From Chthoniobacterales bacterium (GTDB taxonomy: Bacteria; Verrucomicrobiota; Verrucomicrobiia; Chthoniobacterales; DASVRZ01), in assembly GCA_039930045.1 (NCBI GenBank), contig JBDSQB010000010.1, positions 82,264-146,263 on the forward strand: a stretch of DNA of 64,000 nucleotides. Direction: 5' to 3'. Below, piece by piece: positions 3,565 through 54,721 of the stretch (positions are counted from its first letter, which is position 1; each line of letters begins with the position of its first letter). The notes under the pieces are model-generated. The model was given only the letters and a program-made list of their open reading frames with translations. It had not been told where the DNA came from and ran no database searches. Both the position numbers and the translations under genes were made by a program.

Positions 3565-5031
3565 ATGACTGTCCTTTCCATCCGCCAGATGATCGAACTT
3601 GAAACGCGGGCCTTTGCCAGCGGAGTGGACGCATGGGAATTGATGCAGGAAGCCGGGCGGCAAATGGCTTGCGCGATTCGTCAGAGATTTCCGCAACCCG
3701 GCTTTTGCCGCGTATTTGCGGGAAAAGGAAACAACGCTGGCGACGCTTGGGTGGTCGCCCGATTGTTAGACGAGGCGGGCTGGAAAGTGGAGGTCGAATG
3801 TCCGTTTCCCATCGGCGAAATGTCCCCGCTGGCTCGCCGCGCGATCGAGGGTTGGACAGGACGAAAATCTTCCGCCGAAACAACACCGCCCAATCGCCGA
3901 CCGCCGTTCATCGTCGTGGATGGATTGCTCGGGATCGGTGCGCAAGGCGAAGTCCGCCCGCCGCTGCGCGAAATGATCCACGAAATCGCACGGCAACGAG
4001 CGCAGGGCGCGGTCGTCTTTTCACTCGATCTGCCCAGCGGACTGGGAACGGAAACGTGCGTCGTTGCGGATCACACACTCACCGTTGGTTTTGCCAAGGA
4101 CGTGCTGCTGGCCGACGCGGCGGCGCACTTCGTCGGACGCATTTCTGTCCTGCCGCTGGAGGAACTTTCCAGTCGAGTTACAGACGAATCTGCGGATGAA
4201 CTCGCGACCGCGGCGACCCTGCGTTCCGTGCTGCCACCGCGCTCGTTCGACATTCACAAAGGCGAATGCGGGCGCGTGATGTTAGTTGCGGGCAGCCTCG
4301 GCACGGCGGGCGCGGCAGTGCTGGCGGCCCATGGCGCGTTGCGGGCCGGAGCCGGATTGGTCTCACTGGTTTGCCCGCCAGAAATTTACCCGACCCTGGC
4401 TCCCATGCTGCCGCCCGAAGTGATGGCGCGTCCGTGGGATCAGATGGGCGAAACGAAGATGGACGTGCTCGCCATTGGACCCGGACTCGACCCCAAGTGG
4501 CGCGACGCCATCTGGCCGCTCATCGAATCCGCCCCCATTGGCCAACCGCTCGTGCTCGATGCTGGTGCGCTTACCATTTTGGCCGAAGACATTTCACGGT
4601 TGGAAAAACTGCCAGGCCCCATTCTCCTCACGCCGCATCCGGGAGAAATGGAACGCCTTTTCCCCCGGCAAAATCGCACCCGCGCTCAGTGGGCGGCGGA
4701 CTGCCTTTCCACTCACGGCAACGTCACGCTCCTGCTGAAAGGCTCCCGCACCCTCGTCGCACAACGCGACTGGCCCGCGAGTTACAATTCCACCGGGCAT
4801 CCAGGCATGGCCACCGGCGGCATGGGCGACACGCTTACCGGAGTTTGCGCCGCCCTGCTCGGGCAAAAACTTTCCACCCGCGATGCCGCGCGCGTGGGTG
4901 CCTGGGTCTGCGGACGCGCTGCCGAAATTGCCGTGGAAGAGAGCGGCCAAAGTCAGGAATCGCTCTTGCCATCCGACTTGCATTCGACTCTCGGACGCGC
5001 CTTTTCCGATCTGCGCGCGGGCGTTTACTAA
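3565..5031 (+). CDS. nnr: Bifunctional NAD(P)H-hydrate epimerase / ADP-dependent NAD(P)H-hydrate dehydratase
   Basis: A 488-residue cytosolic metabolite-repair enzyme. The N-terminal ~210 residues are the YjeF_N epimerase, with a GKGNNAGDAW motif (family form GxGNNGGDG). The C-terminal half is the ribokinase-like dehydratase, with the TPHPGE motif and a G-G-M-G-D-T-L-T-G nucleotide/catalytic loop. Together they convert damaged NADHX/NADPHX back to NAD(P)H. The frame extends upstream into tRNA-Arg; the ATG at 3565, just after the tRNA, is the only sensible start. It is the first protein gene of a same-strand run through tsaB. Confidence 0.93.
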   Translation: MTVLSIRQMIELETRAFASGVDAWELMQEAGRQMACAIRQRFPQPGFCRVFAGKGNNAGDAWVVARLLDEAGWKVEVECPFPIGEMSPLARRAIEGWTGRKSSAETTPPNRRPPFIVVDGLLGIGAQGEVRPPLREMIHEIARQRAQGAVVFSLDLPSGLGTETCVVADHTLTVGFAKDVLLADAAAHFVGRISVLPLEELSSRVTDESADELATAATLRSVLPPRSFDIHKGECGRVMLVAGSLGTAGAAVLAAHGALRAGAGLVSLVCPPEIYPTLAPMLPPEVMARPWDQMGETKMDVLAIGPGLDPKWRDAIWPLIESAPIGQPLVLDAGALTILAEDISRLEKLPGPILLTPHPGEMERLFPRQNRTRAQWAADCLSTHGNVTLLLKGSRTLVAQRDWPASYNSTGHPGMATGGMGDTLTGVCAALLGQKLSTRDAARVGAWVCGRAAEIAVEESGQSQESLLPSDLHSTLGRAFSDLRAGVY

Positions 5032-5094: not shown

Positions 5095-6120
5095 ATGAGC
5101 GATAAAAAATCGGGGTGTCTCGCGCTGTCATTATTTTTGGCCCTCTGCGTCAGCCTTCTCATCAACGTCGGACTTTTTTCCACCAAAGTCGGCAACTCCA
5201 TCAAGCACTCGGCCATGAAATCGGGTGTCCAGTCCGACCTGCCGAGCTTCGATGAAACCGTCGTGCAAAACGCCACCAGCGGCTCCGGCGACCGTATTGC
5301 TGTCATCGAGATTCGGGGCGTCATCAGCAGCTCGGCGCCTGGTCGCCTCACCGACTCCATGGTCGATGACGCGAAGGTCGCCTTGCGCCAGGCCACCAAT
5401 GACGAAAACGTCCGCGCCATCGTCCTGCACATCGATTCGCCGGGCGGGGAAGTCACCGCCTCCGACGTCATTTACAACGAAGTCCGCGCCGCGCGGCAGA
5501 AGAAAAAAGTCGTCGTTTACATGGGCTCCGTCGCAGCCTCTGGCGGCTACTACATTGCCTGCGGCGGCGACTATCTGATGGCCAACGAAACGACCATCAC
5601 CGGCAGCATCGGCGTCATCATGCACACGCTGAAATACAAGGATCTCTTCGGCAAAATCGGCGTCGAATCCGTTGTCTTCAAGAGCGGCCAATTCAAGGAC
5701 ATCCTCAGTGGCAGCCGCGACATGACCGAGCCCGAACGCGCCTACATTCAGGCGATGGTCATGCAGACCTACGACAAATTTGTCGGCATCGTCGCCAGCG
5801 AACGAAAAATCGACGAGGCCTATCTCCGGACTAACATCGCCGATGGACGCATCATTTCTGGCAAAGACGCCGTGGGTTCCAAGCTGATCAACGCCACCGG
5901 CTACATCGAGGACGCCTACAACAAGGCACGCGAACTCGCCAACTCGCCGAACGCCGCCATCGTGGAATACAAGGCGAAGTTCCGCTTCGGCAATCTGCTG
6001 CGGAGTTTTGGAGCCGAGTCCAAGTCGAATGCCAAGGTCGAAGTCTCGCTCGGCGAGGGAATTCTGCCGCATCTCGAGTCGGGTCGGCTCTATCTGCTGC
6101 CGTCGTTCTACGCGGAATAA
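5095..6120 (+). CDS. sppA: Signal peptide peptidase SppA, S49 family
   Basis: A 341-residue serine protease of the short (Bacillus-type) SppA form, anchored by one N-terminal transmembrane helix (about residues 9-30). It degrades cleaved signal peptides in the membrane. The Ser-Lys dyad can be assigned: Ser149 in the S-V-A-A-S-G-G-Y-Y motif and Lys201 in K-S-G-Q-F-K-D, with the ~52-residue spacing seen in the Bacillus enzyme. An in-frame TTG lies at 5083, but the ATG at 5095 gives a clean signal anchor. A CPBP protease gene follows 3 bases later. Confidence 0.92.
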   Translation: MSDKKSGCLALSLFLALCVSLLINVGLFSTKVGNSIKHSAMKSGVQSDLPSFDETVVQNATSGSGDRIAVIEIRGVISSSAPGRLTDSMVDDAKVALRQATNDENVRAIVLHIDSPGGEVTASDVIYNEVRAARQKKKVVVYMGSVAASGGYYIACGGDYLMANETTITGSIGVIMHTLKYKDLFGKIGVESVVFKSGQFKDILSGSRDMTEPERAYIQAMVMQTYDKFVGIVASERKIDEAYLRTNIADGRIISGKDAVGSKLINATGYIEDAYNKARELANSPNAAIVEYKAKFRFGNLLRSFGAESKSNAKVEVSLGEGILPHLESGRLYLLPSFYAE

Positions 6121-7775: not shown

Positions 7776-8194
7776 AAACCACCGTCCATTCCTTGGCCGA
7801 GCTGGGCGCGCTCGCGGAAAAAATTGCAGTCGAGTTAGAGCCGAATGCGATCATCCGACTCGACGGAACTTTGGGCGCGGGCAAAACCCATTTTGTGAAA
7901 GCGCTCGCCGCGGCGCTGGGTTATCCCGATGAGGTTTCGAGCCCGACTTTTCCTCTCGTTCACGAGTATCGCTGGAACGACCGATTGTTAGTCCACATCG
8001 ACTTCTATCGTCTGGAAACTGAGGACGAAATTTTTGCAGCCGGGTTGCAGGAATATCTGCCCTGCGAAGGCATCACCGTGGTGGAATGGGCGGGCAAGTT
8101 TCCCGAGGTTTTTCCGCAGCAAAGCTGGCAGATTCAGCTCACCATTCTCGATGAAAACAGCAGGGAGGTCGCCGTTGAATCGCCTCGTCATTGA
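7772..8194 (+). CDS. tsaE: tRNA threonylcarbamoyladenosine biosynthesis ATPase TsaE
   Basis: A 140-residue P-loop ATPase. Walker A is G-T-L-G-A-G-K-T, followed by the conserved S-P-T-F-P-L-V-H-E-Y segment. With TsaB and TsaD it makes the t6A37 modification of ANN-decoding tRNAs. The start is TTG overlapping the thiL stop; a GGAGG lies about 12 bases upstream. It overlaps tsaB by 20 bases, so the pair is coupled. Confidence 0.93.
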   Translation: MKTTVHSLAELGALAEKIAVELEPNAIIRLDGTLGAGKTHFVKALAAALGYPDEVSSPTFPLVHEYRWNDRLLVHIDFYRLETEDEIFAAGLQEYLPCEGITVVEWAGKFPEVFPQQSWQIQLTILDENSREVAVESPRH

Positions 8195-8765
8195 ATCCTC
8201 CACCGCGCAGGCCAGCGTCGCGCTTTTCTCCGGGAGCGAATTGTTAGTCGAGGAAGTTTTTCCCAGCGGACGCGGCCCGGTCAGCCAGTTCTTTTCGATC
8301 TTGGAGCGCACGCTGAAGTTAGTCGATCAACTCGACGAGCTAGTCGTCGGCGTTGGCCCTGGCAGTTACTCCGGCATCCGCATCGGAATCTCCGCTGCGA
8401 TAGGACTGCAACTCGCCCGTGAAATTCCAGCGATGGGCATCGTCTCGTTGTTAGGATTCGAGGGCGACAACTATCAAGTCGTGCTCGACGCGCGCGGAAG
8501 CTCGACCTTTGCGAAGGTCGCGAATGGAATGTTAGTCGCCGCTCCCGAGAACTGCACACGCGAGGAGATGTTAGAAAAAATAGATTCGAGTTGGATCACG
8601 TTCAGCCCCGACGAGATCGGTGATCTATCGCTGACGAAATCCTTCCCACTCGCCTCGATGTTAGGAAAACGCGTCCTCGCTGGCGGCGTGATTCCACTTC
8701 CATTGCAACCGCTCTACCTAAAAAAGCCGCACATCACCGCCGCAAAAACGATACCGCTTTTCTAG
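8175..8765 (+). CDS. tsaB: tRNA threonylcarbamoyladenosine biosynthesis protein TsaB
   Basis: A 196-residue actin-fold (ASKHA) protein with the TsaB motif G-V-G-P-G-S-Y-S-G-I-R; it partners TsaD and TsaE in t6A synthesis. The TTG at 8175 is chosen because AGGGAGG sits about 7 bases upstream and it gives the expected N-terminus N-R-L-V-I-E-S-S. The protein is at the short end for the family. The gene is full of the rare Leu codon TTA in a GTTAG context (six GTTAG in under 600 bases). Last gene of the plus-strand run. Confidence 0.92.
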   Translation: MNRLVIESSTAQASVALFSGSELLVEEVFPSGRGPVSQFFSILERTLKLVDQLDELVVGVGPGSYSGIRIGISAAIGLQLAREIPAMGIVSLLGFEGDNYQVVLDARGSSTFAKVANGMLVAAPENCTREEMLEKIDSSWITFSPDEIGDLSLTKSFPLASMLGKRVLAGGVIPLPLQPLYLKKPHITAAKTIPLF

Positions 8766-8778
8766 CTAAACATTCTTC

Positions 8779-8857
8779 GGGAGCGCACGCGTCTCGCGTG
8801 CATCCAGCGGGCGTCCCGCCCGGTGGCGTTTCGAGCTTCTCGGAGACGCGGGCTCCC
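8779..8857. repeat. Imperfect intergenic inverted repeat, likely bidirectional terminator
   Basis: Lies between the convergent ends of tsaB and livF. The arms GGGAGC...GCGTCTCG and CGGAGACGCG...GCTCCC are nearly complementary, and the interior holds smaller palindromes (GCGGGCGTCCCGC). There is no long T-run, so it may end transcription in both directions or be a dispersed repeat element; I cannot separate these from one copy. Confidence 0.5.
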
Positions 8858-8861
8858 AGTG

Positions 8862-9569
8862 CTACCCTCCCAGATACGCCTCGCGGACTTGGGGATTCAC
8901 CCGCAGGGCAGGGGACGCGTCTTCCAAGATGATTCGGCCTGTCTCCAGCACATATCCGTAACTGGAAACTTCCAGAGCCAGATTCGCATTCTGCTCGACC
9001 AGCAAAATCGTGATCCCGAGCGTCTGATTGATCTCGATGATCTTCTCGAAGATCGTCTTCACCAGCAACGGCGCAATGCCCAGCGACGGCTCGTCTAACA
9101 TCAGAAACTTCGGCTTGCTCATCAGCGCGCGACCGATGGCCAGCATCTGCTGCTCTCCTCCAGACAGCGTGCCTGCGGTCTGTTTTTCCCGCTCCTTCAG
9201 CCGAGGGAAAATCGCGAAAATATAATCGAGTTCCTTCGGGAAATTGGCCTTGTCGTTCCGCAGATAAGCGCCCATCCGTAGATTTTCCATCACGGTCAAA
9301 TTGGCAAAAACCATCCGGCCTTCCGGCGACTGAGCCAGCCCGCGTGCGACTAGTTTGTGAGGTGGCAGATTCGTGATGTCCTCCCCGCAGAAAACAATGG
9401 AACCCGACCGCGCGCGGACCAGCCCGGAGATCGTCCGCAGAGTCGTCGTCTTCCCCGCGCCATTCGCCCCGACCAGTGTGACAATGCTGCCAGATTCGAC
9501 TTTCAGCGATATGCCTTGCAGCGCCGAGATTGATCCGTAGCAGACTTCGAGATCTTTGATTTCTAACAT
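8862..9569 (-). CDS. livF: Branched-chain amino acid ABC transporter ATP-binding protein LivF
   Basis: A 235-residue ABC ATPase. Walker A is G-A-N-G-A-G-K-T, the ABC signature is L-S-G-G-E-Q-Q-M and Walker B is K-F-L-M-L-D-E-P. The short length and the E-G-R-M-V-F-A-N-L-T segment are typical of LivF rather than LivG. It powers uptake of Leu/Ile/Val or related amino acids with LivG, M, H and J. Last gene of the minus-strand cluster, 4 bases after livG. Confidence 0.95.
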   Translation of the reverse strand: MLEIKDLEVCYGSISALQGISLKVESGSIVTLVGANGAGKTTTLRTISGLVRARSGSIVFCGEDITNLPPHKLVARGLAQSPEGRMVFANLTVMENLRMGAYLRNDKANFPKELDYIFAIFPRLKEREKQTAGTLSGGEQQMLAIGRALMSKPKFLMLDEPSLGIAPLLVKTIFEKIIEINQTLGITILLVEQNANLALEVSSYGYVLETGRIILEDASPALRVNPQVREAYLGG

Positions 9570-9573
9570 TGGC

Positions 9574-10335
9574 TTAGGTGCCTAGATACGCGGCGATGAC
9601 TGTGGGGTTGCAGCGGATTTCCTCGGGGGTGCCTTCGGCGATTTTTTTGCCGTAGTCGAGGACGGCGATGCGCTGGCAGATGCCCATGACGACTTTCATG
9701 TCGTGCTCGACTAACAAGACGGCGAGTCCAAATTTTTCCTGGGTGAAACGGATGAGTTTCATCAGCTCGGCCTTCTCGGTGGGGTTCATGCCGGCAGCGG
9801 GTTCGTCGAGGAGGAGGAGCTTGGGTTTTGTGGCGAGAGCGCGAACGATTTCGAGGCGGCGCTGGTCGCCGTAGGCCAGGCTGCGGCAGTGGTTGTCGCG
9901 CTCTTTTTCGAGTCCAAAGATTTCAAGCAGCTCCATGACTTGGGCCTCGATGGAAGCTTCCTCATGGGTGAATTTTGGGCCGCGCAGGAGGGCTTGGGAA
10001 ATGCCATGTCGCAGATGCAGGTTGCAGGCGGTGCGCACGTTGTCATAAACCGTGAGCGAGGCGAAGAGGCGGATGTTTTGGAACGTGCGGGCGATGCCAC
10101 GGGCGGTGATGCGGTAGGGCCGCTGACCGCTGACGGGTTTGTCGGCGAAACAAATCGTGCCCGAGGTGGGACGGTAAACGCCGGTGATGAGGTTGAAAAC
10201 GGTGGTCTTGCCCGCGCCGTTGGGGCCAATCAGGCCGACGAGTTCGCCAGGGTGGATTTGGAGGGAAACGTCGGAGACGGCTTTGAGTCCGCCAAACTGG
10301 ACGGTGACTTGGTTGAGATCGAGGAGCGCGCTCAT
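9574..10335 (-). CDS. livG: Branched-chain amino acid ABC transporter ATP-binding protein LivG
   Basis: A 253-residue ABC ATPase. Walker A is G-P-N-G-A-G-K-T, and the R-T-F-Q-N-I-R-L-F segment and D-E-P-A-A-G-M-N-P after Walker B are typical of LivG. The signature region reads L-A-Y-G-D-Q-R-R-L-E, the LivG form of the ABC motif. Overlaps livM by 4 bases, as expected for a coupled operon. Confidence 0.95.
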   Translation of the reverse strand: MSALLDLNQVTVQFGGLKAVSDVSLQIHPGELVGLIGPNGAGKTTVFNLITGVYRPTSGTICFADKPVSGQRPYRITARGIARTFQNIRLFASLTVYDNVRTACNLHLRHGISQALLRGPKFTHEEASIEAQVMELLEIFGLEKERDNHCRSLAYGDQRRLEIVRALATKPKLLLLDEPAAGMNPTEKAELMKLIRFTQEKFGLAVLLVEHDMKVVMGICQRIAVLDYGKKIAEGTPEEIRCNPTVIAAYLGT

Positions 10336-11294
10336 TTTTTCCGGGCCAATCTAACTCCAAACAAGCCTTGCGGCCGCGTGAGCATGAGGATGATGAGGAG
10401 CAGTGAGTAGAGAATCATCCGGTTTTCCGCGACATGCCGGAACCAGTCGGGTAGCCACTCGTAGTGGGAGACCTTGCGGAGGAATTCTGGCAAAATAGTT
10501 AGCAAAACTGCCGCCAGACAGACGCCGACCGTGCTGCCCATGCCGCCAAGAATGACCATGACGACGATGTCCACGGACTTGATGAAGTTGAAGCCCTCGG
10601 GGTGGATGAATTGCTTGAAGTGCGCGTAAAGTCCCCCGGCGATTCCGGCGAAAAAGGCGGCGAGGACGAAGGCGAGGACCTTGTATTTAGTGGTGTTGAT
10701 GCCCATCGCTTCGGCGGCGATTTCGTCATCCTTGACCGCGAGAAAACCGCGTCCGTAGGTGGAATTCACCAGGCTGACAACGACGTAAACCGTGAGTGCG
10801 GCGAAGGCGAAGGTCCAAAAGAAATTCGTGTGCAGCACCATGCCACCGAGTCCGCGTTGTGCGCCGAGAGCCTCGCAATTCTGGATGATGCCCTTGATGA
10901 TTTCATTGAAACCCAGCGTGACGATGGCGAGGTAATCGCCGCGCAGCCGCAGCGAGGGAATGCCGACGATGAGGCCGGCGAGCGCCGCTCCAATACCGCC
11001 AAGCAAGAGGGCAATTACATAGCCAGTTGTGATAGCAATGGAACTCGAACCTAAAATATAGCCGTAGCTGAGGGTGAGCCAGGAGGAGCCATACGCGCCG
11101 ACCGCCATGAAGCCCGCGTGGCCGAGCGAAAACTGGCCGGTGTAGCCGTTTACAAGATTAAGCCCAGTGGCGAGGATGATGTTGATCCCTATGCCGACGA
11201 GGATGTCGTAGTAGTAGGGATTCATCCCGGTGGCGAAGGTCGAAATGACGCCGCACGCGATCAATGTTAGGAGCAGGACAAGCTGGCTGCGCAT
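10332..11294 (-). CDS. livM: Branched-chain amino acid ABC transporter permease LivM
   Basis: A 320-residue inner-membrane permease with about eight to nine hydrophobic segments. It has the LivM hallmarks N-L-V-N-G-Y-T-G-Q-F-S-L-G-H-A-G-F near the N-terminus and G-G-M-G-S-T-V-G in the later part. Its start overlaps the livH stop by one base. Confidence 0.94.
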   Translation of the reverse strand: MRSQLVLLLTLIACGVISTFATGMNPYYYDILVGIGINIILATGLNLVNGYTGQFSLGHAGFMAVGAYGSSWLTLSYGYILGSSSIAITTGYVIALLLGGIGAALAGLIVGIPSLRLRGDYLAIVTLGFNEIIKGIIQNCEALGAQRGLGGMVLHTNFFWTFAFAALTVYVVVSLVNSTYGRGFLAVKDDEIAAEAMGINTTKYKVLAFVLAAFFAGIAGGLYAHFKQFIHPEGFNFIKSVDIVVMVILGGMGSTVGVCLAAVLLTILPEFLRKVSHYEWLPDWFRHVAENRMILYSLLLIILMLTRPQGLFGVRLARKK

Positions 11295-12220
11295 CAGACT
11301 TTTTCCTGTTCGGAGGCTCCGAGGAGTCCGGTGGGTTTGAGCAGCAAAATGAGAATGAGCACGCCGAAGACGATGGCGTCGCGATAGGTAGGACTAATAT
11401 AGCCGACGACCATGGTCTCAATGACGCCGATGAGGATGCCGCCGAGCGCTGCGCCGGGAAGATTGCCGATGCCGCCTAACACTGCGGCGACGAAGGCCTT
11501 GAGCCCAGCGCTGATGCCCATGAGCGGGTCGATGCTGGGCTGCTGGATCGATGTTAGGATGCCCGCCGCGCCGGCCAGAGCGGAACCTAACCCAAATGTA
11601 AACGCAATGACGACGCTGTTGTTAATGCCCATGAGCGAGGCGGCGACGGGGTTGAAGGACAGCGCGCGCATGGCCATGCCCATCTTCGTATGCAGCACGA
11701 TGTGGCGCAGGCCAAAGAGCAAAATGACGGTGACTAACATCGAAATGGCGGCGCTCAGTTGGATACCCAATTCCGAGATTCGTCCCCACGTTTCTGGCAG
11801 GCTGATGTAGCGGTCGGTGAGGATTTCCGGGAACGATTTGGGGTCGGCTCCGAAGAGAAACTGGCCGCCATTTTCCAAGAACAATGAAACTCCGATGGCG
11901 GTGATGAGAACAGTGAGTTTCGGACGATTGCGCAACGGGCGATAGCAAAGCCACTCGATGCCAATGCCGATGAGCGCGCAGAGGATCATGGTGACGAGTA
12001 GCATCGAAATCAGCACGCCATAGCCCGGCTGATCGCCAAAGAGCCGAAGCATTTTTGGCCCGATATAAAATCCGGCAAAAGCTCCTAACATATAGACGTC
12101 GCCGTGGGCGAAATTGATAAACCGCAACACCCCGAAGACCATGGTGTAGCCCAGCGCGATCAGGGCGTAAATGGAGCCTTGGGCCAGTCCGTTGATGAGT
12201 TGTTGGAGAAACTCTAACAT
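11294..12220 (-). CDS. livH: Branched-chain amino acid ABC transporter permease LivH
   Basis: A 308-residue polytopic permease. It starts with the family's L-I-N-G-L-A-Q-G-S-I-Y-A-L-I-A-L-G-Y-T-M-V-F-G pattern and has the G-G-I-G-N-L-P-G-A loop near the C-terminus. Forms the membrane channel with LivM. Contains several GTTAG/CTAAC words on both strands. Confidence 0.94.
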   Translation of the reverse strand: MLEFLQQLINGLAQGSIYALIALGYTMVFGVLRFINFAHGDVYMLGAFAGFYIGPKMLRLFGDQPGYGVLISMLLVTMILCALIGIGIEWLCYRPLRNRPKLTVLITAIGVSLFLENGGQFLFGADPKSFPEILTDRYISLPETWGRISELGIQLSAAISMLVTVILLFGLRHIVLHTKMGMAMRALSFNPVAASLMGINNSVVIAFTFGLGSALAGAAGILTSIQQPSIDPLMGISAGLKAFVAAVLGGIGNLPGAALGGILIGVIETMVVGYISPTYRDAIVFGVLILILLLKPTGLLGASEQEKV

Positions 12221-12273
12221 TTTATAGCCACACTCAGTTCGTCTCCATGCATTCCCTCTGTGGCTAATTTTCC

Positions 12274-13389
12274 TTACGGAGCGACAGCTTGCTCGAACTG
12301 GAATCCGCCGTCTGCGATTTTCAAAATCACCGCTGGCTTACGGGCGTTGCGCTGCTCGTCGAGCGTGATGCTGCCCGTGATGCCGGGGTGATCCTTCGTC
12401 GCGGCGATGGCTTCGCGCAGTTTGTCGCCGTCGGTGGTGCCTGCCTTTTTGATCGCCTCAGCCAGAATCATCGCGCTGTCATAGCCGAGCGCAGCCATGT
12501 CGTCAGGCACTGCGCCGTTTTTGGCTTTGAATTTCTCCACAAAACTCTGCACGACCGGCGACTTGTCCTGGGCCGAGAAATGGCAGGAGAAAAACGAGCC
12601 GTCGAGCGAGTTGCCCGCGACTTTCAACAACGAATCGCCCACCCAGCCGTCGCCGCCGAGCAGCGGACATTTCAACCCGAGGAGCTTCGCCTGCTTGGCG
12701 ATCAGCGAGACTTCGCCGTAATAGCCGGGCAGAAAAATCGCCTCGGGCTTCAGCGATTTCATCGAGGTGAGCTGGGCTTTGAAATCCTTGTCGCCCGTGC
12801 TGTAGCTCTGTTCCTTCACAATCTCGCCGCCATTTTTTTTGAAGCCTTCGACGAAGAATTTCGCCAGACCCACGCTGTAATCCTGCTTCACATCGGTCAG
12901 CACCGCGACCCGTTTCCAGCCCTTTGACTGGGCAAACTTGGCCATCACCGTGCCTTGAAAAGGGTCGATGAAGCAGACGCGGAAAATGTAATCGCCCACC
13001 TCAGTCACCTTCGGATTCGTTGAAGCCGGGGAGATCATCGGGATCTTGTTTTGCTGGCAGATCGGAGCGGCTTCGAGCGATTTGGAGGACGCGACCTCGC
13101 CGAGCACGGCGATGACTTTATCCTGGGAAATGAATTTCTGAACAATGGTCGCAGGCTGGCCTGCGGTCGATTGATCGTCCTCAGTAATCAGCTTGATCTT
13201 TTTCCCGAGGAGGCCGCCGGTGGCATTGATTTCGTCCACGGCGAGTTGGGTTCCTTTGTGGGACGACTGGCCGAAGCTGGCGTTGCCGCCAGTGAGCGAG
13301 GCAAATTCGCCTACGACGATTTCATCGGCAGCAAAAAGAGAAGCAGCGAGTCCGGCGGTGGCGAGCATGGAAAGGAGAAGTGTTTTCAT
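12274..13389 (-). CDS. livJ: Branched-chain amino acid ABC transporter substrate-binding protein
   Basis: A 371-residue periplasmic binding protein of the Leu/Ile/Val type (peripla_BP_6). The ATG at 13389 gives a clear signal peptide (M-K-T-L-L-L-S-M-L-A-T-A-G...A-A); an upstream in-frame TTG is unlikely. The mature part starts E-I-V-V-G-E-F-A-S-L-T-G-G, and S-P-A-S-T-N-P-K-V-T lies in the ligand-binding lobe. It is the first gene of the liv cluster, so the promoter should lie in 13390-13512. The ligand cannot be read from the sequence. Confidence 0.93.
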   Translation of the reverse strand: MKTLLLSMLATAGLAASLFAADEIVVGEFASLTGGNASFGQSSHKGTQLAVDEINATGGLLGKKIKLITEDDQSTAGQPATIVQKFISQDKVIAVLGEVASSKSLEAAPICQQNKIPMISPASTNPKVTEVGDYIFRVCFIDPFQGTVMAKFAQSKGWKRVAVLTDVKQDYSVGLAKFFVEGFKKNGGEIVKEQSYSTGDKDFKAQLTSMKSLKPEAIFLPGYYGEVSLIAKQAKLLGLKCPLLGGDGWVGDSLLKVAGNSLDGSFFSCHFSAQDKSPVVQSFVEKFKAKNGAVPDDMAALGYDSAMILAEAIKKAGTTDGDKLREAIAATKDHPGITGSITLDEQRNARKPAVILKIADGGFQFEQAVAP

Positions 13390-13512
13390 GAAAGAAGAGA
13401 GTTTGGTCAAGTGGACGCGCCAGAGTAGGTAATGCGCCAGAAACTTCAATCATCAAAAACACGGCTCGCCACTCTGCAAAAGCCGAAGTTTTAATCTAAC
13501 CAACGGCGGCGA

Positions 13513-14364
13513 TCAAAAGCCGAAATGATGCGGGTCGGGGCCGAAGCGTTTGCCGCAATTCAAGGCCGAGATGGCCTCCATTTCGCTCGAACTCAACTCA
13601 AAGTCGTAGAGATCCGTATTTTCTTGGATGCGACCTGCGTTCGACGACTTCGGAATCGTGACCACGCCCTGCTGCAAATCCCAGCGTAGGACGATTTGCG
13701 AGGGCGATTTGCCGTGCGCGTCAGCGATGGCGCGGAGTTCCGGCACGTCCTTCACCGTGCCTTGCATGATCGGCGACCACGCCTCCTGCACAATGCCGTG
13801 ACGGCGATTTAGCGCCAGTAATTCGGGTTGGGTGAGATACGGATGAAACTCGACCTGGTTCACCATCGGCGGCGTGTCGATGCGAGTGAGAAACGATTCC
13901 AACTGGTCGGGCATGTAATTGCAAACGCCGATCGCCCGGGCGCGACCATCGGCGAGCAATGTCTCCATCGCGCGCCAAGCCGCCGCGTCGGCCGTCGGAA
14001 TCGGCCAGTGCAGCAGTAAAAGATCGACATAATCCGTGCCGAGGAGCCGGAGCGAATCATCGGCAGCCTTCAAAACGGCCTCGGTGCCGCCGCGAATGTC
14101 GTCGTTCCAGACCTTCGTCGTGAGAAAAATCTCACCGCGCGGGATACCGCTGTCGCGAATGCCTTCGCCCACGCCGTCCTCGTTTTCATATGCGGCTGCG
14201 GTGTCGATGTGGCGATAGCCGAGTTCGAGCGCGATGCGAACAGCCGTCTGCGCCTCGCCGTCGGGTTTCATTTTCCAGGTGCCAAAGCCGAGCATCGGCA
14301 TGGCGGCTCCGGTGGCGAGGGTGACGCTGCTCCGAATGTCGGTCGCGGGATTATCGGTGATCAT
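13513..14364 (-). CDS. Aldo/keto reductase
   Basis: A 283-residue NADPH-dependent AKR of the 2,5-diketogluconate reductase type. Visible are G-F-G-T-W, the catalytic Asp and Tyr in H-I-D-T-A-A-A-Y-E-N-E, Lys in T-T-K-V-W, His in L-L-L-H-W-P, and the coenzyme loop P-K-S-S-N-A-G-R-I-Q-E-N. The frame stays open to 14502, but that would overlap the divergent gene at 14489; the ATG at 14364 gives the normal AKR N-terminus. The substrate is unknown. Confidence 0.9.
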   Translation of the reverse strand: MITDNPATDIRSSVTLATGAAMPMLGFGTWKMKPDGEAQTAVRIALELGYRHIDTAAAYENEDGVGEGIRDSGIPRGEIFLTTKVWNDDIRGGTEAVLKAADDSLRLLGTDYVDLLLLHWPIPTADAAAWRAMETLLADGRARAIGVCNYMPDQLESFLTRIDTPPMVNQVEFHPYLTQPELLALNRRHGIVQEAWSPIMQGTVKDVPELRAIADAHGKSPSQIVLRWDLQQGVVTIPKSSNAGRIQENTDLYDFELSSSEMEAISALNCGKRFGPDPHHFGF

Positions 14365-14488
14365 TACATGGGAAACGAAGTTGCGAGCCGTGCGGTTGTT
14401 TCGGAGTGCTCTGATTCGAATCGCGGTGAAATGGGAAAGCTGATTTATTTCATGGGCTTGCGGTCGAATTGCTGCTAAAACACCCCCC

Positions 14489-14686
14489 ATGGCCACACCC
14501 AACTATTCATTTGAAAAACGTCGCAGAGATCTGGAGAAGAAAGCAAAGAAGGAGCAGAAGCGCCTGGACAAACTGGCCGCAAAAGCCGCCGGCACCAGCG
14601 GCCTGAGCGACGGTGAAACCGAACCCGCCGAGGGCGAGGAAGCCGCCGATGACGAGGAAACCGGGGAAAAGAAGACCGAGGAGTAG
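14489..14686 (+). CDS. Small highly charged hypothetical protein
   Basis: 65 residues: a basic, probably helical N-terminal half (Y-S-F-E-K-R-R-R-D-L-E-K-K-A-K-K-E) and a very acidic Glu/Asp-rich tail. Short Lys/Arg-rich proteins with an F-E-K-R-x-R-x-x-x-K-K-x-K-K start are common in bacteria, but their function is unknown to me. Divergent from the AKR gene and followed by the inverted GATGTTAG pair. Confidence 0.7.
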   Translation: MATPNYSFEKRRRDLEKKAKKEQKRLDKLAAKAAGTSGLSDGETEPAEGEEAADDEETGEKKTEE

Positions 14687-14694
14687 GGCGGTCT

Positions 14695-14716
14695 GATGTT
14701 AGAAACGGCTAACATC
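14695..14716. terminator. Inverted pair of the GATGTTAG word (8-bp stem, 6-base loop)
   Basis: GATGTTAG and its exact complement CTAACATC are separated by six bases. The pair starts 9 bases after the stop of the small charged gene and 5 bases before the DUF72 start codon. It forms a perfect 8-bp stem but has no T-run. It may terminate the upstream gene or occlude the DUF72 ribosome site. The same word is repeated elsewhere in the window (see findings). Confidence 0.5.
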
Positions 14717-14721
14717 GCGGC

Positions 14722-15429
14722 ATGAAACACTGGATAGGCACCTCGGGATTTCAATATCCGGAATGGAAGGGGACGTTCTATCCAGAGACGATGCCTGTTA
14801 GCAAGATGCTGCCGTTTTATGCGGAGCGATTTTCCACCACGGAGATCAATTATTCTTTCCGCCGCATCCCGAGTCCGAAGACGATCCAGGGCTGGTCGGA
14901 TGCAACTCCGGCTCGGTTCAAGTTCAGCCTGAAGGCGCCGCAAAAGGTGACGCACTTCGCCAAGCTGCGCGATTCTGCGGACACTCTGAACTACTTCGAG
15001 AGCATCATTGCGATGCTAGGAGAAAAGCGCGGCGTGGTCTTGTTTCAGTTGCCGCCGACGTTTCAGAAAGACGCGGTTTTGCTGGACGACTTCCTCCGAG
15101 ACGTGCCGATATCGATGCGAGTCGCCTTTGAGTTTCGTCATGCCTCGTGGTTTGACGACGCGGTTTTCCAGACGCTGCGCTCGCACAATGCCGCGCTTTG
15201 CATCGCGGAGAGCGCCGATCTTTCCACGCCGCCCGAGGTCACGGCAGACTTCGGTTATCTGCGTTTACGGCGCGAGGATTATACGACGACGGACATCCGG
15301 AAATGGGCGGAGACGATTCAAAAAACCAGCTCGCAGTGGAGTGAGGCTTTTATCTATTTCAAGCACGAGGAAAGCGGAGTCGGGCCGAAGTTTGCTCGGC
15401 AGATGATCGGGATGTTAGTCGAGTCCTAG
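14722..15429 (+). CDS. DUF72 (YecE-like) protein, copy 1
   Basis: A 235-residue TIM-barrel-like protein of the DUF72 family. It has the opening I-G-T-S-G-F-Q-Y-P-E-W-K-G-T-F-Y-P, T-E-I-N-Y-S-F-R, F-K-F-S-L-K-A-P-Q, F-Q-L-P-P and V-A-F-E-F-R-H-A-S-W. The biochemical role of the family is not established to my knowledge. Two further DUF72 genes lie in this window; this is the shortest. Confidence 0.9.
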   Translation: MKHWIGTSGFQYPEWKGTFYPETMPVSKMLPFYAERFSTTEINYSFRRIPSPKTIQGWSDATPARFKFSLKAPQKVTHFAKLRDSADTLNYFESIIAMLGEKRGVVLFQLPPTFQKDAVLLDDFLRDVPISMRVAFEFRHASWFDDAVFQTLRSHNAALCIAESADLSTPPEVTADFGYLRLRREDYTTTDIRKWAETIQKTSSQWSEAFIYFKHEESGVGPKFARQMIGMLVES

Positions 15430-15505
15430 GTTTTCACCTGATCGTGGGTCAGGCGGCGGATGGAAGCCGTCCAATGGCGGCGGCGAGTGCGTAGTTCCTT
15501 TTACC

Positions 15506-31866: not shown

Positions 31867-32784
31867 ATGGCTCTCTCCAGCGATTCTCCCCCGCTGACCC
31901 TGGAGGAGCGTCGCGCCCGGCGGGAGGCGCGCCGGGCAAAGCAGCGCGAGGCCAATGTCGGTCGCGCCGCCAGGATGCATCTGGAGCGTCTCCGACGGGA
32001 GGCGCACCCGCCGAAGCCCGCCAAGCGCCCGGCGGCTGAATTGCCAGCGGTGAACATTGGCTGCTCGGGCTGGTTTTACTGGCACTGGCGCGGCGGGTTT
32101 TATCCGGCGGAATTAGCGACGCGCGACTGGTTTTCCCATTATGCCAGCCGCTTCAAAACCGTGGAACTGAACGCGCCGTTTTACTCCTGGCCGACTAGCG
32201 CCAATGTCCAGACCTGGCTGCGGCAGGCCGGGCGGCGGCGGTTTGTTTACACGGTGAAAGCCTCGGAACTCATCACCCACGTCAAACGCTTCGACGGCAC
32301 GGGCGAACTCGTGCGCGACTTCGGTCACATCGCCGACGTGCTCGGACCGCGCATGGGCTGTTTTCTTTTCCAGCTTCCGCCGAGTTTTACCTACACCGAG
32401 GAGCGGCTGACTCAGATCGTGATGCAACTCGACCCCGCCAGGCGCAACGTCGTCGAATTTCGCCATCGCAGTTGGTGGAATGAGGCCGTCTATGAGGCGT
32501 TTCGCGCTGCTGGCATCATCTTTTGCTCCTGCAGCGGCCCTCGTCTGCCCGACGAACTCATCACCACGGCGGACGACATTTACATCCGCTTCCACGGGCT
32601 GAAACAATGGTATCGCCACGACTACACGCGAGAGGAATTGGCCGTCTGGACCGAACGTATCCGGGCCAGCGGGGCGAGACGGGTCTGGGCTTACTTCAAC
32701 AACGATCGCGACGGCTTCGCGATCCAGAATGCAATGGAACTCCGCCGTCAGCTCGGCCGGAAAACGGCTAAGATTGCGATCTAA
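31867..32784 (+). CDS. DUF72 (YecE-like) protein, copy 2, with basic N-terminal extension
   Basis: 305 residues. The first ~55 residues are an Arg/Glu-rich helix (L-E-E-R-R-A-R-R-E-A-R-R-A-K-Q-R-E) absent from copies 1 and 3. The DUF72 domain follows: I-G-C-S-G-W-F-Y-W-H-W, F-Y-P, T-V-E-L-N-A-P-F-Y, F-Q-L-P-P and V-V-E-F-R-H-R-S-W. The ATG at 31867, with GGAAAGG just upstream, is preferred over a longer frame overlapping fabI. Its role is unknown. Confidence 0.88.
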   Translation: MALSSDSPPLTLEERRARREARRAKQREANVGRAARMHLERLRREAHPPKPAKRPAAELPAVNIGCSGWFYWHWRGGFYPAELATRDWFSHYASRFKTVELNAPFYSWPTSANVQTWLRQAGRRRFVYTVKASELITHVKRFDGTGELVRDFGHIADVLGPRMGCFLFQLPPSFTYTEERLTQIVMQLDPARRNVVEFRHRSWWNEAVYEAFRAAGIIFCSCSGPRLPDELITTADDIYIRFHGLKQWYRHDYTREELAVWTERIRASGARRVWAYFNNDRDGFAIQNAMELRRQLGRKTAKIAI

Positions 32785-32904: not shown

Positions 32905-35082
32905 GTGAAAAACGTCCTTTTTATCTGTACCGGTAATATCTGCCGCAGCCCGATGGCTGAGGGTCTCTTCCGGCACATGGTCAAAAACCGGGGCGACATC
33001 GCCGTCGCTTCCGCTGGCGTCGCGGCGATGAATGGTCAGGAAACGAGCTTCAACGCCATTGAGGCGTTGAAGGAAAAAGGAATCAACATTTCCCACTACC
33101 GCAGCCAACCGGTGACGGATGATCTCATCGACAAGGCGACCCACATTTTCACCATGACGCAGGGCCATCTGGAGACCATCGCCATGCTCTATCCCGAGGC
33201 CGTGGAAAAGACGTTTCTCCTCACCGACTTCGACGAGATCGACCCCGGTCGCGACATCGCCGACCCCATCGGCATGGGACTCCACTCTTACCGCGCCTGC
33301 CGCGACGAAATCCGCGAAAGTCTGCCCAACATCCTGCAAATCATCGACCAATCCAACACCATGTCTGCACCCACCATTCCGTCCGCCCAAACCCGCCCGC
33401 TCACCATCAGCCTCGGAGCCGATCACGGTGGATTTGAACTCAAACAAAAAATCCAGCGTCACCTGAATCGCGCCGGGCACATTCTCCACGACAAAGGCGT
33501 CAACGGCCCGGACTCGGTCGATTACCCCGATTACGCCGACCAGGTTTGCCGCGAAGTCATCGACGGACAGGCCGAGTTTGGCATTCTTTTTTGTCGCACC
33601 GGCATCGGCATGAGCATCGCCGCCAATCGTTTCCCGCAGATTCGTGCGGCGTTGGTGAAAGACGAACACACCGCCCGCATCACGCGGCATCACAATAACT
33701 CCAACGTCCTCTGCCTCGCCGCCGACTCCATCGACGAGCGCACGGCCGGTGAAATCGTGGATGCCTGGCTCTCAACTCCCTTCGACGGCGGACGCCACCA
33801 GGAGCGACTGGAAAAACTCGATCACCTCGGCACCAGCGACAGCGGTCGTGCTCTCGCCGAGACCGACCCCGAAATCTACGCCTCCATTCAACTCGAAGAG
33901 CGCCGCCAGTCGGAAAACATCGAACTCATCGCCTCCGAAAACTTCACCAGCCGCGCCGTCATGGAAGCGCAGGGTTCCTGCCTGACCAACAAATACGCCG
34001 AGGGCTACCCCGGTCGCCGCTGGTATGGCGGTTGCGAAAACGTCGATGTCGTCGAGACCCTCGCCATCGCGCGGCTGAAGCTGCTTTTCCCCGGCGCAGA
34101 CCACGTCAACGTCCAGCCGCACAGCGGTTCGCAGGCGAATGCGGCCGTCTATTTCTCCGTCCTCGAGCCCGGCGACAAAATCCTCACGATGGACCTCTCC
34201 CACGGCGGACACCTTACCCACGGGATGAAAATGAACTTCTCGGGCCGCCTTTATCAAGTGCTCCATTACGGTGTCAGTCCGACCGATTTCCGCATCGATT
34301 ACGACGCGCTGGCCAAGCAAGCCCTCGAATATCAGCCCAAAATGATCACCGCAGGGGCCTCCGCATACCCGCGCATCATCGACTTCCAACGGATGCGCGA
34401 GATCGCGGATTCCGTCGGCGCGTATCTCTTCGTGGACATGGCGCACATCGCCGGCCTCGTCGCGGCGGGCGTGCATCCGAGTCCGGTCGGTATCGCGGAT
34501 TTCGTCACCTCCACCACGCACAAAAGCCTGCGCGGCCCTCGCGGTGGCATCATCATTTGCAAAGAAAAATACGCCAAGGCCATCGACAGCCAGGTCTTCC
34601 CCGGCGTCCAGGGCGGACCCCTCATGCACGTCATCGCGGCCAAGGCCGTCTGCTTCCACGAGGCGCTGCAACCCGGGTTTAAGTCGTATCAGAGGCAGGT
34701 CGTTTCCAACGCCAAAGCCCTCGCGGCCCGCCTGACCATGCTCGGCTACACCATCGTTTCCGGCGGCACCGACAACCACCTCATGCTCGTCGATTTGCGG
34801 CCAAAAAACATCACCGGCAAAGAAGCCCAGGAAACCCTCGACGAAGCCGGCATCACGATTAACAAGAACTCCATCCCCTTCGACACCGTCGCCATCACCA
34901 AATCCGGCGGCATCCGCATCGGCACCCCCGCCGCCACCACGCGCGGCATGAAAGAAGAGGAAATGATGGAAATCGCCGACCTCATCCATCGCGGCCTGCA
35001 AAACGTCGGCAACACCGAAGCGCTCCACGCCATTCGCGCCGAAGTCAAAAAACTCACCGCCCGCTTCCCGCTGCCACGCTGA
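32905..35082 (+). CDS. glyA: Three-domain fusion: LMW protein phosphatase / ribose-5-phosphate isomerase B / serine hydroxymethyltransferase
   Basis: One open frame of 725 residues starting at GTG. Residues 1-150 are a low-molecular-weight phosphatase: P-loop C8-T-G-N-I-C-R14-S and D120-P general acid. Residues 165-315 are RpiB: G-A-D-H-G-G, catalytic Cys230 in F-C-R-T-G-I-G, His263; the family's C-G-T-G has Arg at the first Gly. Residues ~322-725 are serine hydroxymethyltransferase with [16 protein letters not shown] and the PLP Lys540 in T-T-H-K. Gram-positives keep the corresponding genes as neighbours (ywlE, rpiB, glyA). An internal in-frame ATG at 33361 could in principle start RpiB, but it has no ribosome site, and GlyA has no usable start of its own, so the fusion looks real. 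The P-loop Ile, where the arginine phosphatase YwlE has Thr, suggests phosphotyrosine specificity. Confidence 0.9.
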
Positions 35083-37919: not shown

Positions 37920-38945
37920 ATGCGTTATCGAAAATACAAAGGCACCGAATTGGAAGTCAGCGAAGTGGGGTTTGGCATGTGGACGGTTTCCACCGGCTGG
38001 TGGGGCCAATTCACCGAGGGCGAGGCGATTGCGCTGATGCATCAGGCGTTCGATTTGGGCATCACGCTCTTCGACGCCGCCGACAGCTACGGCAACGGGC
38101 TGAGTGAGGAATTGATCGCCAAGGCGTTCCCCACACGCCGCGATGAAGTCGTGATCGCGACGAAGATTGGCTACGATTTCACCCATTTCGGCGACGAGCG
38201 CCGCGGGCAGCGGGAGATTCCGCATGATTTCTCGCCCGAGGCTTTGGTGAAGGCGACGGATGCGGCTTTGAAGCGATTGAAAACCGACCGGATCGACCTC
38301 TTGCAACTGCACAACATCCGCATGGAGCAGGTCTATGATGACGCGATCTGGACCACGCTGGAGCAGCTCAAGTCCGCTGGCAAAGTGCTTGCGACGGGCA
38401 TTGCGCTCGGGCCGGCCATTGGCTGGCTTTACGAGGGGGTGAATTGCATCCGCGAGCGGGAGTTCAATTCCGTTCAGCACATTTACAACCTGCTCGAGCA
38501 GCATCCCGGCCGGGCCATGCACGACGCCGCGACCGAGGCGGGCAAGGACACGATGTTCATGATTCGCGTGCCGCATTCCTCCGGGATGCTGGAAGGAAAA
38601 TACACCGCCGACACCGTTTTCCCGCCGAACGATCATCGCAATCATCGTCCGCGAAGCTGGCTGCTGAATGGGGTTCGCAAGATCGACACGCTGCGCTTTC
38701 TGGAGAACAGCGAACGCACGTTGGGTCAGGCTGCATTGCAATGGTTGCTGGCCGACGAGCGCGTGGCCACGACGCTGCCGAACATCTACAACGCGGAGCA
38801 GGTAGTCGAGTTTGCCAAGGCGCCCGACACCGCGCGACTAACCTCGGAAGAAATGGAGCGCATCGCGGATCTCTACGCCGATAATTTCGGAGTGGAGCCG
38901 GAGGAGCCGAAGTTCAAGGGAACGATGGAACTCGCGGAGGTGTAA
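37920..38945 (+). CDS. Aldo/keto reductase (AKR, potassium-channel-beta/Tas-like)
   Basis: 341 residues: G-F-G-M-W-T-V near the N-terminus, catalytic Asp and Tyr in [14 protein letters not shown], Lys in A-T-K-I-G, and His in L-L-Q-L-H-N-I. It belongs to a different AKR branch from the gene at 13513. Its 3' end overlaps the convergent methyltransferase gene by 73 bases. Confidence 0.9.
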
Positions 38946-39649
38946 TATTGCACTAACATCGCCTGCCGCCCGTAGAGGAAGCGGCGGTGCTGGAAGTTTA
39001 TCCAGCCGGCTTCCATCGCTATCTGCGCCAGTTCCTCGTAGGAAAACGAGCGCCGCACCGAGAGCAAGGCATCGTGGACGGTCATGGGTTCGCGGAAGAC
39101 GGTGCTCGTGATGAAGCGCACGCCCAGCCAAGTGAGGAGACTCCGCTCCAAGTCGGCCACCAAGGCAAATCCAGTGGTCGCTGCTAACATCTGGCGCAGG
39201 ATGTTAGTTGCATCCACCTCGCTAAAGTGATGCAGCGCGAGAGAACAAAAGACGCCGGTGTATTCCTGATTGGCAGCGAGTCGAGTGACATCGCACTGGC
39301 GGAACTGAATTTCGGGATAGCTAACACTGAGCGACTTGGCCACAGACAGCGTCGCATCTTGAAAATCCAAAGCCTCGACTTCGATGCTAACCTCGTGCTC
39401 GCGGCACCAGTCCACGATGAGTCGGGGGATGTCGCCCGAGCCGGTGCAAAGATCGAGAAAGCGATGCGACGATCCGGGTTGGACTAACATCGCGAGATAA
39501 TGCCGGATGAGCCTATAACTTCCGAACCAGCGATTGAGCTGGCGGAGGTTTTTCAGGTCGGCGATGAGCGTGGCGTCGGCGGTCTCGGCCACGTCCATGA
39601 GTTCGATCTCACCCGGATCAAACGCGCGCTGGCGGAGGTTAGTCCGCAT
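38873..39649 (-). CDS. Class I SAM-dependent methyltransferase
   Basis: A 258-residue methyltransferase with the SAM-binding motif [12 protein letters not shown], then A-L-D-F-Q, and S-L-A-L-H-H-F. The N-terminus E-I-E-L-M-D and L-N-R-W-F-G-S-Y-R resembles methyltransferases found with type III polyketide synthases and terpenoid genes; no such partner is present, so the substrate is unknown. It overlaps pgeF by 11 bases and the convergent AKR by 73. The gene is dense in GATGTTAG words. Confidence 0.85.
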
Positions 39650-40144
39650 AACCTAACACCGCGAGAAGGCGGCCGGTTTTGCCGAGTTCGGCCCGATAGG
39701 AATAGTAGGTGGCGAGATCGGACGCGGTGCATTTTCCGCAGTCGGCGTAGTGCGCAATTCCGGCAGCGCCGGCTTGCGCGGCGATCTGCGCGGCGAAGTC
39801 GATCTCGTAGTGCGGCGGCCGAATGCACGGGGCGAGTTGGACAATGATCTGCCCTGGATTCGACCCAAACTCGACTCTCATTTTCTCGATGGCCACGGTT
39901 AGGATGCCGAGTTCCGTGCCTTTCTTTCCCGAGTGCAGCAAACCGATGGCGCGATGCTCGGGATCGGCCAGAAAGATGGCGCCGCAATCGGCGGTGTAAA
40001 TGCCGAGCGCGATGTTAGGATCGTTGGTGAGAAGTCCGTCGCAGTCAGGAATGGGAGACAGCGAGTTGGAATCGACGCGCACCACATTTTTGCCATGCAC
40101 CTGTTGCGCAGTGACGAATTTCCTATCCGCGAGTCCGATGTTAG
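38953..40144. repeat. Island of six GATGTTAG/CTAACATC words
   Basis: Exact copies start at 38953, 39184, 39200, 39484, 40011 and 40137, in both orientations; those at 39184 and 39200 form an inverted pair eight bases apart. They lie inside two overlapping genes, where they fall as ATG-TTA-G (Met-Leu) or as ACT/CCT-AAC-ATC (Thr/Pro-Asn-Ile), so the DNA word rather than a peptide is conserved. Confidence 0.7.
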
Positions 40145-40298
40145 TCAGCGCGGCGCGATGATAGTCGTCGAGCCGGGCGAGGGCGGCCTCGCGATCCACT
40201 TGCACATCCAAACCCGTCACGCGTTGCAGGAAGCCGTGGCGCAGCCAGACCTCAGCAGCGAGGGCGGGAAACGTTTCGTGCGGAGCAGCGGTCGGCAC
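39639..40298 (-). CDS. pgeF: PgeF/YfiH family (polyphenol oxidase / laccase-domain) protein
   Basis: 219 residues with the family metal/active-site set: Q-V-H-G, T-A-D-C, the His in L-L-H-S-G-K-K-G, and A-P-C-I-R-P. The usual H-A-G-W-R-G loop is replaced by H-S-G-K-K-G. YfiH/PgeF has been linked to correcting L-Ser misincorporation in peptidoglycan precursors and to purine nucleoside phosphorylase activity. It precedes and overlaps the methyltransferase gene. Confidence 0.85.
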   Translation of the reverse strand: MPTAAPHETFPALAAEVWLRHGFLQRVTGLDVQVDREAALARLDDYHRAALTNIGLADRKFVTAQQVHGKNVVRVDSNSLSPIPDCDGLLTNDPNIALGIYTADCGAIFLADPEHRAIGLLHSGKKGTELGILTVAIEKMRVEFGSNPGQIIVQLAPCIRPPHYEIDFAAQIAAQAGAAGIAHYADCGKCTASDLATYYSYRAELGKTGRLLAVLGYAD

Positions 40299-40311
40299 GG
40301 GAGTTAGGTCG

Positions 40312-54717: not shown

Positions 54718-54721
54718 GAAA

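Follow-up and report, generated by a model that had tools for sequence, protein, structure and literature searches.

A tract-bound word in a Chthoniobacterales genome and high-copy words in its sister family as a putative uptake-sequence-like system

The window analysed here is a 64-kb stretch of a Chthoniobacterales genome (G000; 3.52 Mb, 23 contigs, 99.88% complete). The 8-mer GATGTTAG occurs in it 18 times, with 0.55 copies expected from shuffles, and is the most frequent form of a core word, GTTAG with T or G in front ([TG]GTTAG), which is over-represented in the 464 kb made up of the window and C2:1-400000. The features below include the dense tracts assigned by a two-state HMM from copies of [TG]GTTAG, with gene contents named by Pfam domains.

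4278-4285, plus strand: GATGTTAG outlier beyond the HMM tracts, in a YjeF/carbohydrate kinase gene
5831-5838, minus strand: second GATGTTAG outlier beyond the HMM tracts
7801-12900, no strand: dense tract 1a, 16 copies; TsaD-domain (TsaB-like) gene and branched-chain amino acid ABC transporter genes
13201-13700, no strand: dense tract fragment, 1 copy
14001-15500, no strand: dense tract 1b, 4 copies; contains the 14695 pair and a DUF72 gene
14695-14716, plus strand: facing inverted pair GATGTTAG-(6)-CTAACATC, between two plus-strand ORFs
15501-38700, no strand: word-free stretch, no TGTTAG in 23 kb; includes the core genes uvrB and SHMT fusion
38701-40300, no strand: dense tract 2, 12 copies; methyltransferase-like and laccase-like genes
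39184-39207, plus strand: outward inverted pair CTAACATC-(8)-GATGTTAG, inside a methyltransferase-like gene (38873-39649, minus strand)
53401-55900, no strand: dense tract 3, 13 copies; PMT-like gene and a gene without Pfam match

DUF72 homology assigns G000 to Chthoniobacterales (Spartobacteria) within Verrucomicrobiota, the best matches being MAGs of this group with up to 70% identity. Three DUF72 genes were found in the window (14722-15429, 31867-32784 and 46063-47031), of which the first alone falls in a dense tract. A fused ORF at 32977-35082 joins low-molecular-weight phosphatase, RpiB-type isomerase and serine hydroxymethyltransferase domains.

Two close inverted pairs had been singled out in the first-pass annotation, and both are present as described: the facing pair at 14695-14716, with an 8-bp stem and a 6-base loop, lies in intergenic DNA (the small ORF upstream ends at 14686, and the hairpin ends 5 bases ahead of the DUF72 ATG at 14722), and the pair at 39184-39207 lies within coding sequence. 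The further proposal that such pairs act as transcription terminators was not supported, and we consider terminator function highly improbable. While both structures fold well and beat most shuffles (-13.4 kcal/mol and z -2.7 for the 14695 hairpin, z -3.6 for the 39184 pair), the T-run is missing 3' of the 14695 hairpin, where GCGGCATG follows instead, and a terminator scan at 14716 detected none. Facing GATGTTAG pairs with a gap of 0-20 number just 3 among the 356 copies of the whole genome, counted in the facing orientation only. A close-pair test over 864 kb (the window plus 800 kb sampled; distance of at most 24 bp, expectation from the density at 25-400 bp) gave 2 facing (0.2 expected), 1 outward (0.5) and 0 tandem (0.6) pairs for GATGTTAG, and 8 facing (4.2), 4 outward (4.9) and 7 tandem (9.5) pairs for TGTTAG, which amounts to a weak surplus in the facing orientation at very low counts. 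Among the 12 close inverted TGTTAG pairs of these 864 kb, the 4 intergenic ones are all facing, a weak sign in favour of the first-pass annotation, but the other 8 sit within genes. Nor was there an excess in a word-rich relative (G160, described below), which has 5 inverted pairs of its own word TCGTTAGG with 5.2 expected. Save for the marginal facing surplus, paired copies are essentially not in excess, and the excess of close inverted pairs joined to a T-run at gene ends that would mark rho-independent terminators was not found. Terminator use of inverted pairs is common among uptake sequences but does not define them. Close inverted pairs are mostly a by-product of local word crowding, and a system of inverted pairs was ruled out since the counts do not clearly exceed local density. 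The idea of a repeat-word system like uptake sequences, which the pairs had been taken to support, is on the other hand well supported by other evidence: the number of copies, their balance between strands, the tracts and, most of all, the words found in a sister family.

Across the whole genome, GATGTTAG has 356 copies vs 67 for its reversed control, with strand counts of 186/170 and 36/31, respectively. No orientation bias is seen for TGTTAG either, at 110/107 in C2 (400 kb) and 20/19 in the window, nor for the word of G160 (2741/2752), and neighbouring copies are randomly oriented. This strand balance indicates that the word is not a replication-oriented signal, and it excludes Chi or any replication-oriented word. 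Copies of the word share only 8-10 bp and their flanks are nearly information-free, which rules out a mobile repeat. An artefact of codon usage or base composition might be suspected because the commonest frame involves TTA codons; it is largely refuted and barely credible, since the word is found on either strand, in each of the four stop-free frames and also in intergenic DNA, TTAG but not TTAC is raised in dense tracts, and the over-represented words exceed order-3 expectations 7-9 fold. Among the 212 other genomes of the order, none has GATGTTAG more than 2-fold over its control.

Further words are over-represented in the window and C2. GAGTTCCAT occurs 67 times in 464 kb (6.3 expected) and is evenly spread, outside the tract pattern, as are GACTTCCAT, GAGTTGCA and GAGTTAGAT, which are not tract-bound; positions 11038, 20129, 25013, 28110 and 46176 are examples of this group, and the four words look like one degenerate family. 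GCTAGTAC was counted 15 times in the same 464 kb (0.23 expected). GTACTAG is nearly confined to dense tracts, with 13 copies inside and 1 outside, and may be a companion or variant of the tract word.

Of 256 TGTTAG in 464 kb, 231 fall in 89 kb of word-rich regions, a 38-fold contrast with the remainder for regions delimited by TGTTAG itself. The two-state HMM gave 3.75 vs 0.16 copies of [TG]GTTAG per kb, with dense tracts covering 17% of the first 464 kb, and was preferred by BIC (2306) over three rates (2348) and one rate (2759). With parameters fixed from the first sample, the dense fraction in four stretches of a held-out 400 kb was 0.108, 0.217, 0.265 and 0.065, and the two-state likelihood was better in all four, marginally in the last. 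Tracts reach up to 17 kb in length; their internal var/mean of 0.69-0.75 carries no evidential weight, as the bins were chosen by the model. The word thus lacks the whole-chromosome spread of an uptake sequence (17% dense in the first sample; 11%, 22%, 27% and 6.5% in the held-out stretches), and for this reason we do not file it as a member of that class. The tracts also differ from the rest of the chromosome in oligonucleotides beyond the word, and this was confirmed on held-out sequence. A classifier on 1-kb windows, with the words masked and tetramers containing TAG, CTA, TTA or TAA excluded, reached a cross-validated AUC of 0.756 (60 shifted label sets: mean 0.52, maximum 0.60) and, after training on the first sample, an AUC of 0.685 on the held-out 400 kb (300 shifted sets: mean 0.50, maximum 0.60); none of the 60 and none of the 300 shifted controls scored as high.

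As to where tracts begin and end, a strictly gene-bound model was rejected, being worse than free switching by 11 log units. True gene borders nevertheless fit the tract edges better than all 60 shifted border sets, so that gene borders matter partly. A gene-level cause of the tracts would also yield such an edge fit and agrees in part with these data; the gene-level composition test was restricted to dense or word-free genes of at least 450 bp, leaving out those with few words. The dcw cell-wall operon (ftsI, murE, murF, murD, ftsW, murG, ddl and ftsQ by Pfam domains) forms the largest tract, and other tract genes encode prolyl-tRNA synthetase, CinA, RecQ, uracil-DNA glycosylase, squalene/phytoene synthase, a TsaB-like protein and SAICAR synthetase. 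While the dcw operon is word-dense, uvrB, the SHMT fusion and others, including Ku/LigD and a second PBP, are empty of the word, and since word-free stretches thus also hold core genes, core status alone is insufficient to explain the tracts.

Words of the same kind, in far higher numbers, were found in a sister family (f8), which we take to be the GTDB family with Udaeobacter. A locus of Chthoniobacterales MGR_bin418 (L012), found via DUF72, carries TCGTTAGG 28 times in 16.7 kb vs 0.4 expected. In G160, taken as the MGR_bin418 genome (G057) since counts and size are identical, TCGTTAGG occurs 5493 times in 4.3 Mb, on both strands alike, with 174 copies (83/91) of the control. At least 1795 copies are present in 7 of 213 genomes, all of them from f8 (genera g17, g42 and g43); enrichment is weaker in other f8 genera, and every other family lies below its control. 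The consensus in 327 kb of G160 is the 9-bp TCGTTAGGC, with one 8-mer per 740 bp; most of its single-mismatch forms are not raised, and modest rises appear at the first, second and last positions. The word extends over the whole chromosome of G160, as an uptake sequence does (31% of 1-kb bins empty, var/mean 1.3), and 30% of TCGTTAGG sites are intergenic vs 16% of bases. A 13.4-kb word desert in this genome (L077, 3928-17372), which contains a restriction-type helicase gene, resembles an accessory island.

A second word, AAGATCGACA, was first seen in G018 as 39 copies of AGATCGACA in 20 kb. AGATCGACA reaches 4941 copies in G018 and 1157-1672 in six further genomes, so that the genomes with at least 1157 copies are 7 of 213, all f8; most genomes of genera g8, g29, g36 and g45 have hundreds, and genomes outside f8 at most 126, other families serving as the comparison because the reversed control contains CTAG and is unfairly low. 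G018 (loci L083, L144 and L129) carries both words in thousands, with 2254 TCGTTAGG for TCGTTAGGC beside the 4941 AGATCGACA for AAGATCGACA. Non-palindromic words in hundreds to thousands of copies, as known from uptake sequences of 9-12 bp, are hence present in G000 (356 for the 8-mer), G160 and G018. In L015 (G058, taken as G141, genus g38), TGAGTAC was counted 17 times vs 1.6 expected in 16.7 kb, and in the dcw region of L135, AAAGTAC 11 times vs 1.0 expected; these two are possibly another dialect. Chthoniobacter flavus has short direct repeats with a TAATCAG-type 7-base unit (L024, 5423-5507 and 7890-7971).

In f8, TCGTTAGG may also favour core DNA, and its sites are conserved between species. 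In the dcw region, retrieved for 19 relatives, TCGTTAGG numbers 22 (11.1 expected), 32 (15.7), 46 (25.5), 29 (15.6) and 27 (17.4) in the five g42/g43 genomes examined, or 1.55-2 times the genome mean in all five, and 21 vs 15.5 expected in G018 (1.35 fold); in six weaker f8 genomes no clear rise was seen (2/2.8, 4/3.5, 3/2.7, 6/4.2, 0/2.0 and 0/1.1 observed/expected). Between species at 70-80% identity in this region, 28 of 30 TCGTTAGG sites of G159 are kept in G160, compared with 21% of all 8-mers and 28% of other 8-mers with at least 8 copies, and 28 of 41 in the reverse direction. The corresponding figures are 14/20 from G157 to G161 and 14/24 back (background 16%), and 7/14 from G018 to G156 and 7/20 back (background 10%). 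GATCGACA is kept at 9/14 from G007 to G018 and 9/26 back (background 14%), and at 0/18 from G018 to G160. Conserved sites of the kind known for uptake sequences were thus found for TCGTTAGG in f8 only. TCGTTAGG sites that are not shared between species frequently differ by at least 3 bases, a pattern that Treangen et al. also describe for the uptake sequences of Neisseria (PMC2397512). The f8 words are best read as putative uptake sequences.

Two other functions for such words have to be weighed. They might be binding sites of a chromosome-organising or nucleoid-associated protein with the tracts as its domains, which would suit the shortness of the word, its symmetry between strands and its occurrence both within and between genes, as well as the sharp edges of the dense tracts and the conservation of sites. 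The thousands of nearly evenly spread copies in G160, lineage-specific words that differ between genera, and the compositional difference of the tracts beyond the word speak against it, and we know of no chromosome organiser with such word density; we hold this unlikely. A modification, restriction or other defence-related motif enriched in its host genome seems quite improbable: it would agree with short, specific words and with dialects by lineage, but it leaves the tract structure unaccounted for, and to our knowledge defence-related motifs are usually not enriched in host genomes.

In the dcw operon, word positions shared between G000 and the sister family are at most 2 per genome, which suggests that the words there are mostly independent placements and speaks against ancestral sites common to both. 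An origin of the tracts of G000 in f8 was likewise rejected, as its dcw proteins lie at roughly the same distance from every family tested and tetramer profiles single out no donor; none was found among the families compared or the 212 other genomes of the order. Acquisition of the tracts by any route from a dense-word lineage, with the word functionless in G000, would account for the two discrete densities, the common compositional difference on held-out sequence, the near absence of the word outside tracts and its lack of more than 2-fold enrichment elsewhere in the order. Against it stand core genes within tracts, such as the dcw operon with its equidistant proteins, and the failure to find a donor, and we judge it unlikely.

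The competence machinery that accompanies uptake sequences is present. Of 16 genomes examined, all have ComEC and DprA and 14 have PilM, G000 being among those with all three; PilM is missing in both f4 genomes, which are also without the words, and is present in the f5 and f6 genomes, where the words are absent. The three proteins are not specific to word-bearing genomes and match many controls as well. The comEC gene of G000 (C9:26363-27157) lies within a dense tract (C9:24401-29700), which may be chance given that tracts cover about a sixth of the sample.

We propose that the core [TG]GTTAG word could work like a DNA uptake sequence, that is, as a tag by which a naturally competent cell would prefer DNA of its own kind, putatively through recognition by an uptake receptor. 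Tagged DNA would be taken up and recombined more often, and the word would accumulate. The words of Chthoniobacterales would then be lineage-specific dialects, TCGTTAGGC and AAGATCGACA in one family and an ATGTTAG-type word in G000, and the tracts of G000 would stem from transformational exchange with word-bearing relatives, or would mark regions in which repeated exchange has built up the word. We read the tracts as probably representing DNA exchanged through competence with such relatives, with import as their presumed origin, because they form discrete units, have a compositional difference in common and carry genes of the ordinary chromosome. Kinship of the G000 word with those of the sister family is suggested by the GTTAG 5-bp core, the only part they share, and this common core could be due to chance, by our own estimate at about 5%. 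On balance, we give an uptake-sequence-like system with dialects, the G000 word included, an even chance of being correct. A more far-reaching version can be put forward only tentatively, with clearly less than an even chance: Chthoniobacterales, as soil Verrucomicrobiota, may have their own uptake-sequence system that is independent of the Neisseriaceae and Pasteurellaceae ones and comprises three or more dialects, two of them in G018, and G000 may be a mosaic whose dialect tracts were imported by transformation into a word-free chromosome.

If this explanation holds, self-tagging of DNA would have arisen anew in a different phylum, within a soil group that is abundant but hardly cultured; the uptake-sequence requirement has been described as unique to Neisseria and Pasteurellaceae (PMC3630211). 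It would bear on the recombination observed among soil bacteria and on how this relates to ComEC (PMC7305173). No description of uptake sequences or such words in Verrucomicrobia was found in the literature searched, which held no preprints and few subscription papers and makes this a weak negative. A word of this kind would provide a sequence-only marker for competence and for DNA-exchange partners, and the two words of G018 would be a natural test of dialect switching.

Among known genomic words, HIP1 of cyanobacteria is very frequent in all contexts and palindromic; the Chthoniobacterales words resemble it in frequency and contexts but are non-palindromic. With Chi they have in common a short, frequent word tied to recombination, but they differ in showing no strand bias over 400 kb and random orientation between neighbours, and the fixed orientation of Chi is not found. 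They resemble the USS of Pasteurellaceae in a 9-bp core at roughly one per kb on both strands (PMC1939737), where about 10% of uptake sequences are given as inverted repeats and orientation bias as absent; extended A/T-rich flanks were not seen in G160, and its close inverted pairs are not in excess. The DUS of Neisseriaceae belong to another phylum and consist of other words; clear use of inverted pairs was not seen in Chthoniobacterales, G018 has two words at once, and the word of G000 is confined to tracts. Frye et al. describe eight DUS dialects with a common CTG core and counts of about 940 to nearly 6000 (PMC3630211), and the f8 words are like these in being non-palindromic, about 9-10 bp long, strand-balanced, present in thousands of copies and divided into lineage dialects. 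They are also like the DUS (PMC2397512) in being kept at orthologous sites, perhaps in a core-genome bias, and in having unshared sites that are often too divergent for point mutation.
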